A stretch of 48,214 nt of DNA from Candidatus Brockarchaeota archaeon (lineage in GTDB: Archaea > Thermoproteota > EX4484-205 > JAAOZP01). The position numbers and the translations under genes were made by a program. The DNA lies in the NCBI GenBank assembly GCA_017601345.1, contig JAFNIT010000008.1:1-48214 (forward strand), given 5' to 3'. Each line of letters begins with the position of its first letter. Position 1 is the first letter of the stretch. The notes beneath the pieces were generated by a model. That model did not search any database. It had not been told where the DNA came from and saw only the letters and a program-made list of their open reading frames with translations. Of the stretch, positions 34,664 to 41,966 are shown one piece after another.

Positions 34664-34748
34664 GTAACGCAGCGTTGAAAAAGGGTTAAGTTTAAAACGA
34701 GGAGTTTAAAAATAAAAAATAGGTGCCGGGGTAGCTCAACCGGCTAGA

Positions 34749-34763
34749 CTCCAAGGGGTTAAA
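34749..34763 (+). other. tRNA-Met intron 1 (D stem)
   Basis: 15 bases interrupting GA|GC of the D stem. Boundaries inferred from pairing; ambiguity of a base or two. Confidence 0.65.
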
Positions 34764-34771
34764 GCGCCAGA

Positions 34772-34788
34772 CCACCATGGGGTCGAAA
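34772..34788 (+). other. tRNA-Met intron 2 (31/32 region)
   Basis: 17 bases between stem CCAGA and loop CTCATAA. Confidence 0.65.
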
Positions 34789-34930
34789 CTCATAATCTGG
34801 AGGCTGCGGGATCGAGACCCGCCCCCGGCATTCTTAAAGAGAAGACTCGCCAGACAACTCGCCCCTATATATTACACTCGAAAGTCTAACAAAATCTTTA
34901 TTAAACCAAGAGTCTTAAGAAGAATTTGCC

Positions 34931-35046
34931 GGGGGCGTCGGCTAGCATGGTCTAGGCTCCGCGGCTTGGGTGAAATCTCTCCGTATAGAGAAGACTCAGA
35001 GATTTCCAAGACCCCGCGCGACCTGGGTTCAAATCCCAGCGCCCCC
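34931..35046 (+). tRNA. tRNA-Pro (anticodon TGG) with a 42-base intron
   Basis: Acceptor GGGGGCG/CGCCCCC, anticodon stem CGCGG/CCGCG, T arm CTGGG-TTCAAAT-CCCAG. Removing 34971-35012 leaves loop CTTGGGC (anticodon TGG) and 74 bases. A bulge-helix-bulge structure is visible: CTTGG pairs with CCAAG, flanked by bulges GTG and ACC, and the intron is closed by AAATCTCT/AGAGATTT. The D arm GGCTAGC is shared with the other tRNA-Pro at 38575. Confidence 0.87.
34971..35012 (+). other. tRNA-Pro(TGG) intron
   Basis: 42 bases at the canonical 37/38 site with a well-formed bulge-helix-bulge; ends may shift by one base. Confidence 0.75.
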
Positions 35047-35047
35047 A

Positions 35048-35470
35048 TCAATGTTTAAAAGATTAAAAAAGAAGGGATTCGAGTATTGTAAATCAGGATG
35101 TTTTTTGAACGCCAATATTCGCGTGAGTTAGAAATCTTCATGTCTTCCGGATAGTCCGAGGAACAAGTATGCGATGATTTTGCTCCAAAAAATCGGGTAT
35201 ATTGCAGGTTTCTACTTCATCGAACGTCAGCTCTTTAGTAAATGTGTAAGCGTAAGATATATCAGGAATCATAAGCACGTTGGGTTTGACGCTCATTGAT
35301 TACATAAAAATATCGAAAAATGTAAAGCATGAATGTAAAGGATGGAATTTGAATCCACGATGCTTAAACTTGTCTCATAATCCTCTCTTCCTCTTTATTC
35401 CGTATTTTGCAAGGGTAGCGTTGTAGAACTCTAAGAAGCCCTTCTGTCTTTCCTTCGAGGTCTCGTGGAC
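35048..35470. other. intergenic, possible debris of an accessory gene
   Basis: About 420 bases without an intact gene. On the minus strand a stretch (about 35150-35290) can be read as PNVLMIPDISYAYTFTKEL followed by FDEVETCNIPDFLEQ and could be gene rubble. At 35341-35360 the minus strand has GTGGATTCAAATTCCAT, resembling a tRNA T arm, but no tRNA surrounds it. Nothing else seen. Confidence 0.35.
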
Positions 35471-36082
35471 TTAGAACGCGAGCTTGTATGCTGCGATAAA
35501 CGCCTCAACCCTCTTCTTGATCTCTTCGAACTTCCTCTCCTCATCAATGTTGTTTCCGTCGAACTCTGATATTAAGCCTGAATCATAATCAATTTTGTCG
35601 ATTTCCAATTTGACCTCGACCCCGTATTCCTCCGATATCCTCCTAGCCACCTCGTCGAACCATAGTAGTCTAAGGAACGCGTGCCAATATGTTTTTTTAA
35701 GATGCTTCTCGAAATTCCTCCTGTTGAGGTAGTCTTTACAGGCTTCTTCCTCCTCCCTGTTGAGGGTCTCCCACACCTTCTCATCCTCTTCCTTGCTGCC
35801 TCTTGCTTTGGCGAACTTAAAACGATAACTCTTAACCAGGCGTACACTTATATCATACCCAGCCTTATCCAACAAGTCTGATTTTAAGCTCACCGTCCCG
35901 TCGCTATGCTCCGTAACGACCCCAACCGGGGCGTGGCTCTCGGTTCGCACCTCCCACCTATACCAGCTGAATGGAGAAGAAGGAACATCTATTTCGAACG
36001 GTTTGAAGGAGCCCCAACGTACCTCGTTCCTCAGCCTCTCATCCAGGTAGTTCTTCAGCCTGTTGAGGAATTCTTGGCTCAT
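35471..36082 (-). CDS. single-domain member of a new repeat-domain family
   Basis: 203 residues, charged, no membrane span, family not recognised. Its C-terminal half (EEEACKDYLNRRNFEKHLKK, then FDEVARRISEEYGVEVKLEI) aligns with both halves of the 453-residue protein encoded upstream, so it is a one-domain version. Third gene of the accessory module, 92 bases after the 453-residue gene. Strong ribosome binding site GGAGGCTAAGGAATG region before the ATG. Confidence 0.7.
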   Translation of the reverse strand: MSQEFLNRLKNYLDERLRNEVRWGSFKPFEIDVPSSPFSWYRWEVRTESHAPVGVVTEHSDGTVSLKSDLLDKAGYDISVRLVKSYRFKFAKARGSKEEDEKVWETLNREEEEACKDYLNRRNFEKHLKKTYWHAFLRLLWFDEVARRISEEYGVEVKLEIDKIDYDSGLISEFDGNNIDEERKFEEIKKRVEAFIAAYKLAF

Positions 36083-36174
36083 TCCTTAGCCTCCTTCTCT
36101 ACCAAGGTATTCTATATACGGGTTCTTATAACTTCCCAACCTTTACGGTGTCTCAGCCCTCCCATTTTAAAACA

Positions 36175-37536
36175 TTAGTTAGAATTTGCATTGCCTTTGC
36201 GTGCCTTCATAGGCTCTATTCCTATGCTTACTAAGAACTCGTTCATCATTTCCTCATTCTTGTTCATCTTCCCTGCTTCAACCATTACGTCGACTATTCT
36301 CATAGCTTCCTCGATAACTTGCTCATCGCTCATCCCCGTTGAGTCAAAGGTGCTCCAAAAATGTGGTTTCTCATCCTCGTGGAACTTTATGCTAAATCCA
36401 GATTTTTCGCTTAGCCTCCTAGCTATCTCATTTGCCCATATGTGCCGCCTCGCTATGTAGCCGAGGGCCTTATCATTAAGATATTTCTCGTACTTGCCCT
36501 CTAGGAAGTCGTGGAAGGCCCTACGTTCCTCTTCTCTTTCAATCTGCCTAATCCTTTCCTTCTCCTCCTCCGTCTTAGCCTTCTCAAGCCTTCGCTTGTA
36601 TTTATAATACCATATTGCGTCGCGGATTCCATCCCAATGGTCCACAGGGCCTGTGCCGGCTCCGATAATTCCGTTAACACGTGCAACAAGGAATATGTTA
36701 TAGGGTTCCCTATCGATGAAAATACTCCATTTCTCCTCATCCTGCGGGTAAGACGGTCTTAGTTCAATCTCCTGGAAATATTCTCCCTTAAACCTCTTGA
36801 AGAGAAGATCCCTCAGCTTCCCGACGATGCCGCGTGCCACATTCTCAGACCCCTCCTTGAAGATTTTCGGCGTAGGTGATGGTTTTATTCCCATGTTCTC
36901 GAGGAACTCGTTCATCGCTCTATCATTTCTATACATTTCCCTCGCCTCCAAAACTGCATCTATCGCTTTCATGACCTTATGCGCCACTTGTTCCTCATCT
37001 ATGTCGTTCAGGTCGAAAATCACGAGGAATACTGCATAAGGGAACGTTGCACTGACTCTGCGATCGACCTCAGGTTTTTCCACTTCAAAACTGACATCGA
37101 ATCCATATTTCCCGCTCATCTCCCTAGCGATTTCCTCCGCCCAGATGTATTTCCTTGCAAGATACGCTACATCCCCATCAAGATGCTTCTTGAACATTCT
37201 TCGTTTGAAATCTTCAAAGATCGCATGCTTTTCCATCCTCAGCTCTTGATCAATTTTCTTCCTCTCTTCGTCCGTCTTGGCCTCGTTGAATTTTTTATCA
37301 TACTTATAGAAATATAGCATATCTTCTATCATGTTTCTCGTGTGATCAAGGTCTATGGCTACCCTGACCTTCTCACCCACGCGCCCGGCGACGATATTAC
37401 GGTCATCGTAGAGGTGGATGATGATGCCCCAGTCCCGCCCCAGTCTAGAATCTACCCTAACCCCGTAGAAATCATCGGAATCCTTGAATTTCTCCGCGAT
37501 AAGGTCTAACAGCCTATTAACCAGATCTTCGCTCAT
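36175..37536 (-). CDS. tandem two-domain member of a new repeat-domain family
   Basis: 453 residues in two homologous halves (about 1-225 and 230-450). Matching blocks: MLYFYKYDKKFNEAKTDEER with IWYYKYKRRLEKAKTEEEK; FKKHLDGDVAYLARKYIWAEE with EKYLNDKALGYIARRHIWAN; and AMNEFLENMGIKPSP with MMNEFLVSIGIEPMK. Each half has an N-terminal beta-rich part, a charged helical middle, and a helical end. Its ATG overlaps the stop of the nuclease-like frame (ATGA at 37533-37536). No known family is recognised. Confidence 0.75.
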   Translation of the reverse strand: MSEDLVNRLLDLIAEKFKDSDDFYGVRVDSRLGRDWGIIIHLYDDRNIVAGRVGEKVRVAIDLDHTRNMIEDMLYFYKYDKKFNEAKTDEERKKIDQELRMEKHAIFEDFKRRMFKKHLDGDVAYLARKYIWAEEIAREMSGKYGFDVSFEVEKPEVDRRVSATFPYAVFLVIFDLNDIDEEQVAHKVMKAIDAVLEAREMYRNDRAMNEFLENMGIKPSPTPKIFKEGSENVARGIVGKLRDLLFKRFKGEYFQEIELRPSYPQDEEKWSIFIDREPYNIFLVARVNGIIGAGTGPVDHWDGIRDAIWYYKYKRRLEKAKTEEEKERIRQIEREEERRAFHDFLEGKYEKYLNDKALGYIARRHIWANEIARRLSEKSGFSIKFHEDEKPHFWSTFDSTGMSDEQVIEEAMRIVDVMVEAGKMNKNEEMMNEFLVSIGIEPMKARKGNANSN

Positions 37537-38510
37537 CCCAGGTCACTCATCTTAACGACTTTTATCTTCGGCGGCATTTTTGACTCTCCAGCGAGCAAAT
37601 CCTCAGGATCATATGAGAAACCTATCGCGATGCCATATGCATCCTATATTTCCCAACATATCTCTTAAGGCCCTCCTCGCCCTCTGCTATCTCACATAGC
37701 TCCTCCGGCGATTTTTCAACCGAGGACTTCAATTCTATTATAGCAATTACTTCACCCTTCTTAAATACCACTTTCCATCTTTATATCTTCCTTAGCTTTT
37801 ATGACACCATCGGGTTTTGATGCTCCTTCCAATTCTTTCCCATATTTAAGTTCCACATCACTCTCCTTAAGCTGTATCCCAATCTTCTGAGAAAGGGCCG
37901 CGAGTATATCCCCTTTATAGTTTATTTCTTTTATCTCCCCTAGAATTACGACACGCTCCCCGATTTCCCCTATAGCCTCACTCATTTTGCCCAATTTTCC
38001 AGAACTCGTTGCCTCGATTATCTCATGAAGGAGATGGGCCAACTCCTCCTCTATGGAGACTATTTTTATCCACTCTATCTTGCTCGCGCCTTCAGGTACC
38101 TTAACCCGAAGCTCGCTACCTCCGGTGTCTTGCCATTATCGAATCCAACGAGGATCCCATAATTGCTTCCAATACCTCTTTCAAGCTCCTTCAATGCATC
38201 GTAACCGAGCAATCTGAACAGTTCCTCCTTCAATCTAATTCGCTCTCGATCCTCGATCGCTATTTCACAAGGGATCTTGCCCATTTGAGCATCGAGCGGC
38301 TTCAAGTTAAAGCTGTACTCCGCAGTGTCCTCCCCGTATCCGATCTCAATTAGGTTCAGTTTTCTCATCCATCCGGATCCATTCAACGGGTTCAGAATGC
38401 TCCCCATACTTGATCCCGACTTTCCCATCCTGGTAAAAGGAGAGCACAAGGATGTTGCCCGTATTTAACCCTCCAAGGGTCTGACAACTATACAACTTAG
38501 ATACCCTCAT
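37533..38510 (-). pseudogene. PD-(D/E)XK-like nuclease gene with several frameshifts
   Basis: Reading across frames from ATG at 38510 gives about 320 residues. Segments in order: MRVSKLYSCQTLGGLNTGN with QDGKVGIKYGEHSEPVEWIR; LIEIGYGEDTAEYSFNLKPL with FRLLGYDALKELERGIGSN; SELRVKVPEGASKIEWIKIV; then ASKPDGVIK; VVFKKGEVIAIIELKSS; GEEGLKRYVGKYR; AIGFSYDPEDLLAGES. PDGVI followed about 20 residues later by IIELKSS fits the D...ExK active site of PD-(D/E)XK nucleases. At least four frame changes. The final TGA overlaps the start of the 453-residue gene. Confidence 0.6.
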
Positions 38511-38574
38511 AATGCACTAAGGATGATAGCATACTAATTACACTATTCGAAATCTGGAAAAATCATTTGAGGAT

Positions 38575-38662
38575 GGGGGTATCCGGATTCGAACCGGAAC
38601 CACGCGGGCCCGAGCCGCGGAGCATACCAAGCTAGCCGGTTTCGCCTTTAGCCCATACCCCC
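38575..38662 (-). tRNA. tRNA-Pro (anticodon CGG) with a D-arm intron
   Basis: Acceptor GGGGGTA/TACCCCC, anticodon stem CGCGG/CCGCG with loop CTCGGGC (anticodon CGG), T loop TTCGAAT. The D arm is 16 bases too long; removing 38633-38648 gives GGCTAGCTTGGTATGCTC, matching the D arm of the other tRNA-Pro, and a 72-base tRNA with discriminator A. Confidence 0.87.
38633..38648 (-). other. tRNA-Pro(CGG) D-arm intron
   Basis: 16 bases; because CTA occurs at both ends, the cut could lie up to three bases either way. Confidence 0.65.
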
Positions 38663-38720
38663 TGAGGCTTGTTTTCGGTCAACGAGTTTAAAAGTGTTTC
38701 GTTAGTGCTGTTCCAGACGA

Positions 38721-38898
38721 ATGGCCATGGTAAACCTAACCTACAATGGTAGGATTGTCGCCGGAGCCAAGTTCCCAATTAAGCATGCACGTCTATGCTC
38801 TCTTTCCCGGATATTCTCCTGAACGCCGTAAGGAGTACCTTAAGTTCCGCAAGGCCCTCATAGAGAAGTATAAGCGAAGGCGAGCAAGCAAGGGGTAA
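38721..38898 (+). pseudogene. small broken reading frame, unknown
   Basis: ATG at 38721 reads MAMVNLTYNGRIVAGAKFPI, then a frame change near 38785 continues as YALFPGYSPERRKEYLKFRK and a basic end (EKYKRRRASKG) to a stop at 38898. Composition looks coding but no family is recognised. Confidence 0.3.
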
Positions 38899-39059
38899 AG
38901 CCCGTTAGGCCCAAGTCACCGCGCTTCAGATAGGAAAAGGCAAATGAAAAATAAGGCCTCTGAAGGCTTAAGATGACAATTTCCTAACAGTCTCCTCGAT
39001 TCCAAGTTCCTCCTGGTGATCCTAACGGTTTACCCTGCGGAGTATGCACTAACGATTGT

Positions 39060-39217
39060 AGAGTCAAGCTGGGGGAGGAAGGTCTTAAGAGGCATGTTGA
39101 GGAGTATAAAGACAAATATGGGATTGCAATCGGTTTCTCCTACGATCCTAAAGATATACTCGCTGGGGAGCTGGTGCGATTAAGATAGAGGTTTATAAGA
39201 TGAGTGGGCTGAAATGA
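39060..39217 (+). pseudogene. C-terminal remnant of a second nuclease-like gene
   Basis: GEEGLKRHVEEYKDKYGIAI and GFSYDPKDILAGE on the plus strand closely match the end of the nuclease-like frame at 37533-38510. A frame change then gives IKIEVYKMSGLK and a stop that overlaps the next ATG (ATGA, 39214-39217), reproducing the gene junction of the first copy. The upstream part is missing. Confidence 0.65.
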
Positions 39218-39598
39218 GCACGAGTTTGGCTGAGAAGCTGAGGGACCTGTTAATCGAGAGGTTTAAGACCAACGCTTTGAGAAAGTCGAATTATTAACTC
39301 CTTCGCTAGGGGATAAGTGGTGGATTGTCGTCTGCATGTATCTCTACGATATCTCCATCATTGCATATAAAGATGAGGAGGGTAGAGGTTAGCATGGGCC
39401 CCCTACACACCGATGATGAAATAGATGATTGCTTGGGTAGAAAGAAATACAAACGCAAGTACAGGGAGCTAAGACTGAGTAAGAAAAGGAGAAAGTCCGC
39501 GAAAAAAGTTTGAAGAAGAGAAGAGGATCATCGAGGACTTCAGGCAGAGGAGGTTTGAGGAGTACTTGAAAGAAAAAAGAAGGAAGATAAGTAGTTAA
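39214..39598 (+). pseudogene. degraded copy of the repeat-domain protein
   Basis: Starts MSTSLAEKLRDLLIERFKTN, shifts to FEKVELLTPSLGDKWWIVVC and YLYDISIIAYKDEEG, then VSMGPLHTDDEIDDCLG with KKYKRKYRE, then EEKRIIEDFRQRRFEEYLKE. In order these match one domain of the 453-residue protein. At least three frames are needed, and the protein ends before the C-terminal helices. Confidence 0.65.
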
Positions 39599-39755: not shown

Positions 39756-39959
39756 GCATTAAGTTAAAATAGTTTACTCAACGAGACAAAGCATTATCAG
39801 AAAATGGAAGAGATGGAGAACAAGGGTTTCAAAGCGTTGAGCGACATCTTTAAAGCAAAAACTCAGTCTCCTACTATGATTTCGGAAACAATCATTGCTG
39901 TTTATTTTTACTGGATACAAAAGCTCGGAAAGAAAGTTTCTTTTACGTTTAAAGGATAG
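39756..39959 (+). pseudogene. duplicated promoter and N terminus of the HTH/ATP-cone gene
   Basis: GCATTAAGTTAAAAT at 39756 recurs at 40004, 248 bases later. After it an ATG at 39804 begins MEEMENKGFKALSDIFKA, parallel to MEKEESKGFKELSEIFKA of the intact gene, then the similarity stops and the frame ends after 51 codons at 39959. A partial tandem duplication. Confidence 0.65.
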
Positions 39960-40052: not shown

Positions 40053-41966
40053 ATGGAGAAGGAAGAAAGCAAAGGATTTAAAGAGTTGAGTGAAATCTTC
40101 AAAGCTCTGGGTTTTCCGGTTAGAGTCGAGATATTGAAGATCCTAGATAGGAATCCGTTAAGGTATAGTGAGTTGATGAAGACAGCGAGGCTCGACAGGT
40201 TTAATGATGCAGGCAAGTTCGCGTATCATTTGAGCAAGCTTATGGAGAATGGTTTGGTTGAATATAGAGCGGAGAGCAAAATTTACGCTATAACTCCTCT
40301 TGGGAAGGATGTTCTAAATCTCGCCATGACTCTCTTCGAATCCTTAAGGAGGAGGGAGAATATTCTTCTCGTTAGGAGGACAGATTCTTCCATCGAGCTT
40401 TTCGACAGAAAGAGAATAGAGGATTGTTTGGTTAGGGAGGCGGGAATGGAACAGGAGACTGCTGAAGCAATATCTTTAGAAATAGAGGAGAGGCTTTACT
40501 CTCTTGGAATTAGATACTTAACAGCGCCCTTGATCAGAGAGTATGTTAACGCGGTTCTCCTTGAGAAAAAGATGGAGAACTATAGGCATAGGCTGACTAG
40601 GCTGGGCATACCGGTGCACGATGTTAGCGAATTGATTTCCTTAAAACATAGCATAGATGGTGTGGTGAAGGATGCTGGAGAGGAAGTCATGAGGCAGTAT
40701 ACGTTTCTCATGAAGTTGCCGAGGGAAATAGGGGACATGCATCTGGGTGGAATAGTGAACATAAACCATTTAGCAAGCTTCATGTTTAAGCCCGAAGAGC
40801 CTGTTCATTCCTCCGCGGGTTTGAGTCTCCTGAAGGTCTACTCCTACCTGCCTGTACTAGAAGCAACCCCATCTTCCGAGTTTGTTGCGAGCAAGCTGGT
40901 GATTGAGCTGAGCAATGCTTCGTCTGATGCTAACAGCATTATACTGGGTGAGGATTTTTTAAAAACGGATAAGAAGCTAATATTCAACATTGTTCTAAGC
41001 CACAGGAAGTGGAACATCATTCTGAAGCGTGCGAATGAAACGCTATTACTAGAGCTCTTTAACTACATGGAGGAGTTTGCTAGAAAAACAGTTTTATCCC
41101 ATCTATCCGTCTCGCTTATCGAGTATGATGCAGAAGTTATTGATAAAGCCTCAGATAAGCTGGTTAAATATTTTAACGCGGGGGGAGCACTCTTCCTATC
41201 TAATTCTCAGAAAGCGGTTCCAATACACCATCTCCTAATGCTTAGAGAGGAGACTGGGGATTATGCTAGGTCTGGCTTACTAGGGTCAATAAGCCTAAAC
41301 CTCCCCTTAATATTTGAGAGAGCCTCTTCTGATAAGGATGTTTTCATCGGAAGCCTAGAGGAGATTATTAAAAAAGGCGTCGAAGCATTTAGACTCCAGA
41401 AAGAAAGCCTGAAAAACCTTATAGATAACAAGAGGATACCCCTATTGTCTGGGACGGTTAACGGCGAAGCGTATCTTATTGTTGAAAAGGGCTTTTATGC
41501 AGTGGAGTTAATAGGTCTTTACGATACCTCTGAGAAAATCAGCGGCTCGCAAAACATTCCCGATATCGTTTCAGAAGCCGAGAAGCTTTTTAAAAAGATT
41601 AGCGAAATGGTTTCTAAGAACTCTGGTAAAACCCACAGGATTATTACGAGCCTAGTAAGCCATGCGGAGGCGGAGAGAAGGTTTAGGAGGGAAGAGATTA
41701 GTGAAGAAAAACGTGTAAACGTAGTTCCTAGGAGCCTACCTTTAGAGGAATGGTTTAAGTTGGAGTCTAGGCTCAAGAGCCTGTCCCAAGACTCTAATGT
41801 TATTCTTCTCCAAAACCTAGAGGAACTCAGGAGCATTAGGAAAAACAATAAGTCAAGTATCGTAATACATAACCCTGCTACGATGTGCGCGTCTTGCGGA
41901 AGAATATACCCGATTGTTGAAGAGAACTGCGTATGCGGATCCAGCTCTAGAAGCTTCAACTTTTAG
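40053..41966 (+). CDS. winged-helix / ATP-cone / NrdD-like protein without catalytic residues, probable regulator
   Basis: 637 residues. Residues 10-95 form a winged helix (FPVRVEILKILDRNPLRYSE, KFAYHLSKLMENGLVEYR). Residues 104-190 form an ATP cone (LLVRRTDSSIELFDRKRIED). Residues 190-600 resemble anaerobic ribonucleotide reductase (GDMHLGGIVNINHL, GSISLNLPLIFERASSD, KRIPLLSG, AVELIGLYD). The C terminus is a zinc ribbon (CASCGRIYP...NCVCGSS). The cysteine normally before GxISINLPR is absent and the glycyl radical motif near the C terminus is missing (ends RSFNF), so reductase activity is unlikely. A nucleotide-sensing transcription factor is the best guess. Confidence 0.75.
   Translation: MEKEESKGFKELSEIFKALGFPVRVEILKILDRNPLRYSELMKTARLDRFNDAGKFAYHLSKLMENGLVEYRAESKIYAITPLGKDVLNLAMTLFESLRRRENILLVRRTDSSIELFDRKRIEDCLVREAGMEQETAEAISLEIEERLYSLGIRYLTAPLIREYVNAVLLEKKMENYRHRLTRLGIPVHDVSELISLKHSIDGVVKDAGEEVMRQYTFLMKLPREIGDMHLGGIVNINHLASFMFKPEEPVHSSAGLSLLKVYSYLPVLEATPSSEFVASKLVIELSNASSDANSIILGEDFLKTDKKLIFNIVLSHRKWNIILKRANETLLLELFNYMEEFARKTVLSHLSVSLIEYDAEVIDKASDKLVKYFNAGGALFLSNSQKAVPIHHLLMLREETGDYARSGLLGSISLNLPLIFERASSDKDVFIGSLEEIIKKGVEAFRLQKESLKNLIDNKRIPLLSGTVNGEAYLIVEKGFYAVELIGLYDTSEKISGSQNIPDIVSEAEKLFKKISEMVSKNSGKTHRIITSLVSHAEAERRFRREEISEEKRVNVVPRSLPLEEWFKLESRLKSLSQDSNVILLQNLEELRSIRKNNKSSIVIHNPATMCASCGRIYPIVEENCVCGSSSRSFNF

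Follow-up and report, generated by a model that had tools for sequence, protein, structure and literature searches.

We analyzed a 48,214-nucleotide stretch of a Candidatus Brockarchaeota genome (assembly GCA_017601345.1, contig JAFNIT010000008.1, positions 1 to 48,214 of the forward strand; hereafter the window). On its minus strand, a 1,362-bp open reading frame (ORF; 36175-37536) encodes a 453-residue protein composed of two copies of one domain. Comparison with related loci indicates, with a probability of about 80%, that this domain provides immunity in a polymorphic toxin system of Brockarchaeota. It is most likely the antidote to secreted, DNA-cutting toxins that these hot-spring archaea make and that form a family not described before. 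The anatomy of the loci, in which an exported platform with a variable C-terminus is followed by an adjacent matching gene, points to a polymorphic toxin with cognate immunity. The large multidomain protein carries a signal peptide, a constant N-terminus occurs on different C-termini, the adjacent gene is type-specific, and orphan cassettes and tandem or fused immunity domains are found.

Clustering of the ORFs around ~40 copies of the domain returned one recurrent neighbor, a large protein encoded on the same strand and directly upstream, whose C-terminus is the sequence found in fragments upstream of the window's 453-residue gene. Long examples of this partner have 1,139-1,667 residues, some of them clipped by contig ends, and several bear a signal peptide; export is predicted from an N-terminal hydrophobic signal for those at loci L047 (1,562 residues), L059 (1,580 residues), and L080 (1,223 residues). 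The protein is laid out as a beta-rich, predicted extracellular platform and membrane helices (hydrophobic helices around residues 755-800 in L047), followed by a beta domain and then a PD-(D/E)XK-like domain at the C-terminus. The last of these conserves the pattern GE...PD...(I/V)E-x-K, with strands predicted around the motif, and this pattern is typical of PD-(D/E)XK nucleases. A structural model of the toxin C-terminus is confident overall (predicted local distance difference test, pLDDT, 89), and the fold search made with it was uninformative because beta domains dominated the matches. Full-length platforms gave no Pfam match above cut-off to bacterial delivery or processing modules (RHS, filamentous hemagglutinin, WXG, HINT). 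Directly upstream of many platform genes lies a conserved exported protein of ~360-410 residues with a coiled coil and a C-terminal membrane helix (L107:9403-10500, L109:9263-10414, L110, L111, and L112), possibly a delivery partner. A search with the N-terminal platform found no full-length copy in the window's own genome, which is 77% complete; contig 23 of that genome encodes an intact 850-residue toxin of a third type together with a convergent family-C gene (L139:2665-5918).

The pairing of the domain with the nuclease-like C-terminus is consistent across loci. In all 22 listed pairs, the window's included, the nuclease-like ORF lies directly upstream of the domain gene, which encodes 205-265 residues in sister genomes; the spacing is mostly -4 or +3 nt, and intact pairs range from -8 to +19 nt. 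An independent search by the N-terminal platform retrieved further copies from the same genus. Among platform copies with this C-terminal type the domain adjoins in 6/6, and among those with other C-termini in 0/10 (or one, by a weak match; Fisher p=1e-4 to 9e-4). The platform carries no fewer than three types of C-terminus: type B pairs with a family B of 195-220 residues at six loci, and type C with a convergently encoded family C at five. This third pair type (L139 on contig 23, L143, L144, L107, and L109) combines a nuclease-like C-terminus with a family of ~230 residues marked by RxRFIDSLxYLRKMxFFxDYSNLSSEEI, and its convergent orientation is unusual for an immunity gene.

The two halves of the system also vary together. 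The paralogous toxins L047 and L059, from one genome, are 77% identical over their first 760 residues and 23% at the C-terminus, and their downstream neighbors share 33% identity; along the toxin alignment, identity stays at 64-86% over ~1,400 columns and then falls to ~20% in the nuclease. In L049 and L061 the pattern is reversed: the first 760 residues are 36% identical, the nucleases 48%, and the small proteins 45%. Over 16 pairs, distances between nuclease domains correlate with distances between their neighbors (Mantel r=0.77, p=1e-4). The same pairing recurs on other N-termini (a coiled-coil protein at L077, and L076 and L084). It also occurs in a different family within the order, where a 408-residue two-domain member follows, after a 2-nt gap, a protein ending in GE...GPD...IIESK (L085). 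Since the domain tracks the C-terminal type across platforms and N-termini, it is the partner of the nuclease and not of the export platform. A frame-broken copy of the domain on contig 14 has a PIN_2-domain gene immediately upstream of it (L014:6583-7026; E=1.6e-21).

The domain itself had been noticed from the letters of the window: the original prediction proposed an unrecognized domain, duplicated in tandem in the 453-residue protein and repeated in a 203-residue neighbor and a plus-strand remnant. The halves are homologous end to end, aligning continuously by BLASTP (33% identity, 54% positives, 225 residues, E=2e-25), and this is the unbroken off-diagonal match whose absence was to refute the original prediction. 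The first domain, D1 (36847-37536, minus strand), was delimited by this comparison and by a profile match to residues 1-225 (E=5e-67), and the second, D2 (36175-36846, minus strand, stop codon included), by a profile match to residues 235-448 (E=5e-75). The 203-residue protein matches both halves (E=7e-12 and E=5e-10), and the plus-strand remnant is real, although broken into three frames (39199-39589), so that four copies lie within 4.1 kb (35471-39589). The sequence blocks used to recognize the repeat (YYKY/FYKY, AR-IWA-EIAR, and MNEFL-GI) are present in the alignment, but conservation across the family is limited to eight positions, namely W40, F167, G59, M172, A142, G150, E175, and position 187 in second-domain numbering, each conserved in 25-27 of 27 sequences (position 187 is alanine in 25/27). 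The 27-sequence alignment holds no conserved polar catalytic set, which fits a binding protein. The domain is also unrecognized, as claimed: no Pfam or NCBIfam family covers it above curated cut-offs, PADLOC and PHROGs hold no family for it, and searches of PDB sequences with single proteins and profiles gave nothing usable. Weak matches in Pfam, NCBIfam, PHROGs, and PADLOC (MMtag, Srp19, FecR_C, and PHM7_ext) were rejected as short, scattered, and below cut-off. What the original prediction missed is the partnership with a large secreted protein whose C-terminal domain is nuclease-like, together with the toxin-gene remnants in the surrounding gene-poor DNA (37539-38510, 36089-36148, 38718-38783, and 39057-39185).

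The window holds three decayed cassettes, with the toxins broken or deleted and two immunity ORFs still open. First, a toxin C-terminal remnant comprising the beta domain and the PD-(D/E)XK-like domain (37539-38510, minus strand), in five frame pieces, stops directly ahead of the start of the 453-residue gene; it was identified by tblastn with the L048, L059, and L047 toxins and is supported by three-frame reading and piecewise matches to profile A3. Four frame changes fall in these 972 bp and none in the adjoining 1,362-bp ORF, a distribution with a chance of ~0.004 at equal rates. The 453-residue protein is 50% identical over its entire length to a 437-residue two-domain protein behind the L048 toxin. 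Second, the last 20 residues of an L047-type toxin (36089-36148, minus strand; tblastn, 75% identity, E=0.001) stand directly upstream of the 203-residue single-domain gene (35471-36082, minus strand), and DNA similarity to L047 is unbroken across 35385-36141. The 203-residue protein is 71% identical to the one encoded directly downstream of the L047 toxin, over the full 233 residues of the latter (E=1e-99); its homology continues beyond the stop to 35390, the last ~30 residues having been lost to that stop. Nonsynonymous (dN) and synonymous (dS) divergence between the two genes is 0.14 and 0.62, a dN/dS of ~0.23 that does not tell which lineage is under selection. Third, the plus strand carries an exported-platform fragment (38718-38783; tblastn to L061 residues 740-761, 68% identity, E=1e-4), the C-terminal end of a nuclease-like domain (39057-39185; tblastn to L058 and L048, 63-74% identity, E=3e-15 and 2e-10), and the immunity-type gene remnant at 39199-39589, recovered by tblastn in pieces that reach 71% identity and, when linked, give E=1.9e-20 with L058, and by a profile match at 39214-39525 (E=2.7e-4). 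A tRNA-Thr(GGT) found by ARAGORN (38574-38662, minus strand) separates the minus- and plus-strand cassettes. Two further sequences on the plus strand, 34720-34830 and 34932-35048, are apparently intron-interrupted tRNA-like sequences missed by ARAGORN, and 39800-39870 (plus strand) repeats, in short and decayed form, the beginning of the gene that follows (MEEMENKGFKALSDIFK versus MEKEESKGFKELSEIFK at 40053).

Within the D2 gene, 104 bp (36225-36328) recur with 100% identity on contig 10 (L012:6994-7097), where the copy adjoins an unrelated locus that holds immunity remnants in sister genomes. Judged from the sequences, the identity probably reflects recent exchange between cassettes, by copying or by gene conversion.

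The tandem form is older than the window. D1 of the 453-residue protein groups with D1 of its 437-residue homolog at L048 (support 100/99), and the same holds for the two D2 domains (support 100/97), so the fusion is older than the species concerned. A 403-residue two-domain protein encoded beside proB on four contigs, with no adjoining toxin, has a separate origin: well-supported branches force at least two label changes, so tandems arose at least twice. At L086 the domain is fused to the type-B family (E=4e-13 and 1e-11), and a family member with an ankyrin-repeat-like start (L056:5127-5930) is possibly another fusion. Multi-domain immunity proteins are named polyimmunity proteins in bacteria (PMC3482391), and by analogy the 453-residue protein would be a two-domain member of this class.

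Searches for relatives used two profiles, one built from eight domains of the window's own genome and a second, for wider scanning, from 27 sequences. A search of archaeal genomes, proposed with the original prediction, placed the family in all eight genomes of one genus-level group, with 2-18 matches each, many bearing stops or frame breaks, and the eight-domain profile added two further genomes of the same order. The 27-sequence profile had no match in 388 other sampled genomes of the phylum. A scan of 84,980 species genomes returned 20 loci, all in archaeal metagenome-assembled genomes, of which two are labeled Candidatus Brockarchaeota and three others Thaumarchaeota, Crenarchaeota, and uncultured archaeon. 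One assembly contains two versions of the proB-proA-alaS-glucosidase region (L015 on contig 5 and L016 on contig 30), with 81% protein identity and saturated dS for the 403-residue gene. This duplication probably represents two species binned together, and the copy numbers for genome G000 may therefore be inflated.

The computed evidence consists of homology, pairing, spacing, modularity, covariation, the motif, and decay. From it we infer export, delivery to other cells, nuclease activity, binding, inhibition, protection, and a benefit of orphan immunity, which may be combined as follows. The large exported protein would carry its C-terminal PD-(D/E)XK-like nuclease into neighboring, probably related, cells. 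The small protein would stay in the cytosol, bind and block that particular nuclease, and so protect the producing cell and its kin. The genes for nuclease and immunity would travel together as a cassette; after breakage or loss of the toxin, its immunity gene may be kept against neighbors that still make that toxin, and two fused immunity domains, as in the 453-residue protein, could neutralize two toxin variants.

Several observations weigh against this reading. Neither Pfam nor PDB gave a significant match for the predicted nuclease, the best being PF08011 (PDDEXK_9) at E=0.005 for one member; formal profile support being weak, the nuclease assignment rests on the motif. The charges are unlike those of the classic colicin pair, the nuclease domains being acidic and several immunity proteins basic, which also leaves a DNA-mimic mechanism unsupported. 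Pair counts in the set gathered by sequence similarity are biased, because the loci were collected by the domain, a bias from which the platform-based set is free. Finally, the fold of the small protein weakly resembles that of type III chaperones and would fit a chaperone equally well.

This last point concerns the principal competing explanation, in which the domain is a dedicated secretion chaperone that holds the toxin C-terminal domain for export and does not inhibit it. The AlphaFold2 model of D2, the single-repeat structure prediction that had been suggested, is confident (pLDDT 89; predicted template-modeling score 0.85), and its Foldseek neighbors are mostly class I type III chaperones (1s28, ExsC 3kxy, SycT 2bsh, SycE 1n5b, CesT 5z38, and SchA 4g6t), with a YbjN-type protein among the matches. 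A chaperone gene would likewise be expected beside its cargo and to follow the sequence of that cargo. However, these matches are all weak (E 0.06-1, TM-score to target 0.42-0.56, root-mean-square deviation 5-14 Å, no Pfam match), and the genes outlast the toxin, as in the 203-residue gene, which retains 20 toxin residues upstream, and the 403-residue proB neighbor, which has no toxin. Tandem and mixed-family fusions are, moreover, typical of immunity proteins and not of chaperones (PMC3482391). We regard a chaperone-only function as unlikely; a dual chaperone and immunity role is possible. Two proteins of an uncultured archaeal virus in BFVD (A0A1S5Y2T8 and A0A1S5Y2W4) also gave weak fold matches to the domain, the first with E=1e-3 and probability 1.0. 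No relative was found among 2.9 million viral contigs, and a viral origin was rejected, as no viral contig encodes the domain and the archaeal virus similarity is a weak fold match.

Predicted membrane helices between the extracellular part and the nuclease would also suit a membrane receptor whose nuclease points into the cytosol of the producer and kills that cell as an abortive defense on infection or envelope attack, with the small gene silencing it. An extremely variable C-terminus on an unchanging platform, several mutually unrelated partner families, and orphan immunity genes mark toxins that act between cells, and PADLOC gave no match, so this arrangement seems slightly less probable still. 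It is very improbable that the copies are leftovers of some mobile or repetitive element and that the tandem protein has no toxin-related role: copies are numerous in each genome, many carry stops, and the 104 bp of the 453-residue gene are identical on contig 10, but the partner gene, its order, and its spacing are conserved across species, dN/dS is low where measurable (0.14/0.62), and no transposase was noticed among recurrent neighbors, terminal repeats not having been searched systematically.

Beyond the immunity assignment, the loci suggest a wider picture, to which we give a little less than even odds. Brockarchaeota may own a contact- or diffusion-based delivery apparatus, made of the beta-rich platform, the membrane module, and the upstream coiled-coil protein, which would deliver exchangeable nucleases into neighboring archaea. 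Several novel immunity families, one of them type-III-chaperone-like in fold, would guard against it, and immunity would be kept and fused after toxin loss, as happens in the arms races of bacteria. In G193, a genome of another Thermoproteota family, proteins of 1,069 and 1,762 residues (L137 and L138) match the profile of the membrane module (A4), end in EVKYW and DVKYW motifs, and are followed by ~180-residue genes of another family; the presence of this module means that the system may be wider. In these loci, one defined lineage presents tens of toxin-immunity pairs of several types, along with natural fusions. The domains are short and expressible enough for the predicted inhibition to be tested, although the organisms are known here only from metagenome-assembled genomes. 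Recurring orphan archaeal genes would be explained as immunity genes left without their toxin.

Among known systems, the closest in anatomy are the bacterial polymorphic toxins (PMC3482391), which share the constant N-terminus, the exchangeable C-terminal nuclease, the adjacent immunity gene, orphan cassettes, tandem immunity genes, and multi-domain immunity proteins, and which also include PD-(D/E)XK toxins (Tox-REase). Unlike them, the Brockarchaeota platforms scanned carry no recognized bacterial trafficking or processing module, the immunity family lies outside Pfam, and the host is a thermophilic archaeon of Thermoproteati; in the survey by Zhang et al. 2012, most immunity families are absent from archaea (PMC3482391). 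Class I type III chaperones and YbjN-type folds (PDB 1s28, 3kxy, 1n5b, and 6vu7) have a similar order of helices and strands to the predicted model, but the chaperones lack sequence similarity to the domain, score weakly in structure, span ~130 residues against its ~220, and belong to a type III system, of which none is known here. EsaD/EsaG of Staphylococcus (PMC9484751) likewise joins a nuclease toxin to many non-identical tandem immunity paralogs that recombine through conserved blocks, and by analogy the identical 104-bp block suggests recombination as in esaG; the proteins are, however, unrelated, secretion is by type VII, and the immunity copies are separate genes.

The nearest archaeal analog is the VARTIG module of Thermococcales (PMC8416519), in which a large, exported, beta-rich protein has a hypervariable C-terminus and is followed by variable genes; its authors (Makarova et al. 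2021) compare it with polymorphic toxins. Its variable C-terminus is an immunoglobulin domain with no known effector, whereas the Brockarchaeota proteins end in a nuclease-like domain to which a downstream family corresponds. Its authors found no VARTIG counterpart outside Thermococcales, and the present loci, nuclease-like at the C-terminus and found in Brockarchaeota, are not VARTIG modules. Archaeal polymorphic toxins had been predicted and were experimentally uncharacterized as of that work (PMC8416519). The founding paper on Brockarchaeota does not mention toxins, and we found no description of the platform, of the immunity families, or of their occurrence in Brockarchaeota in the literature compared, which did not include the 2019 archaeal toxin survey (Makarova). 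The system is thus of a kind known in bacteria and predicted for archaea, with a platform and immunity families in Brockarchaeota that are apparently new.
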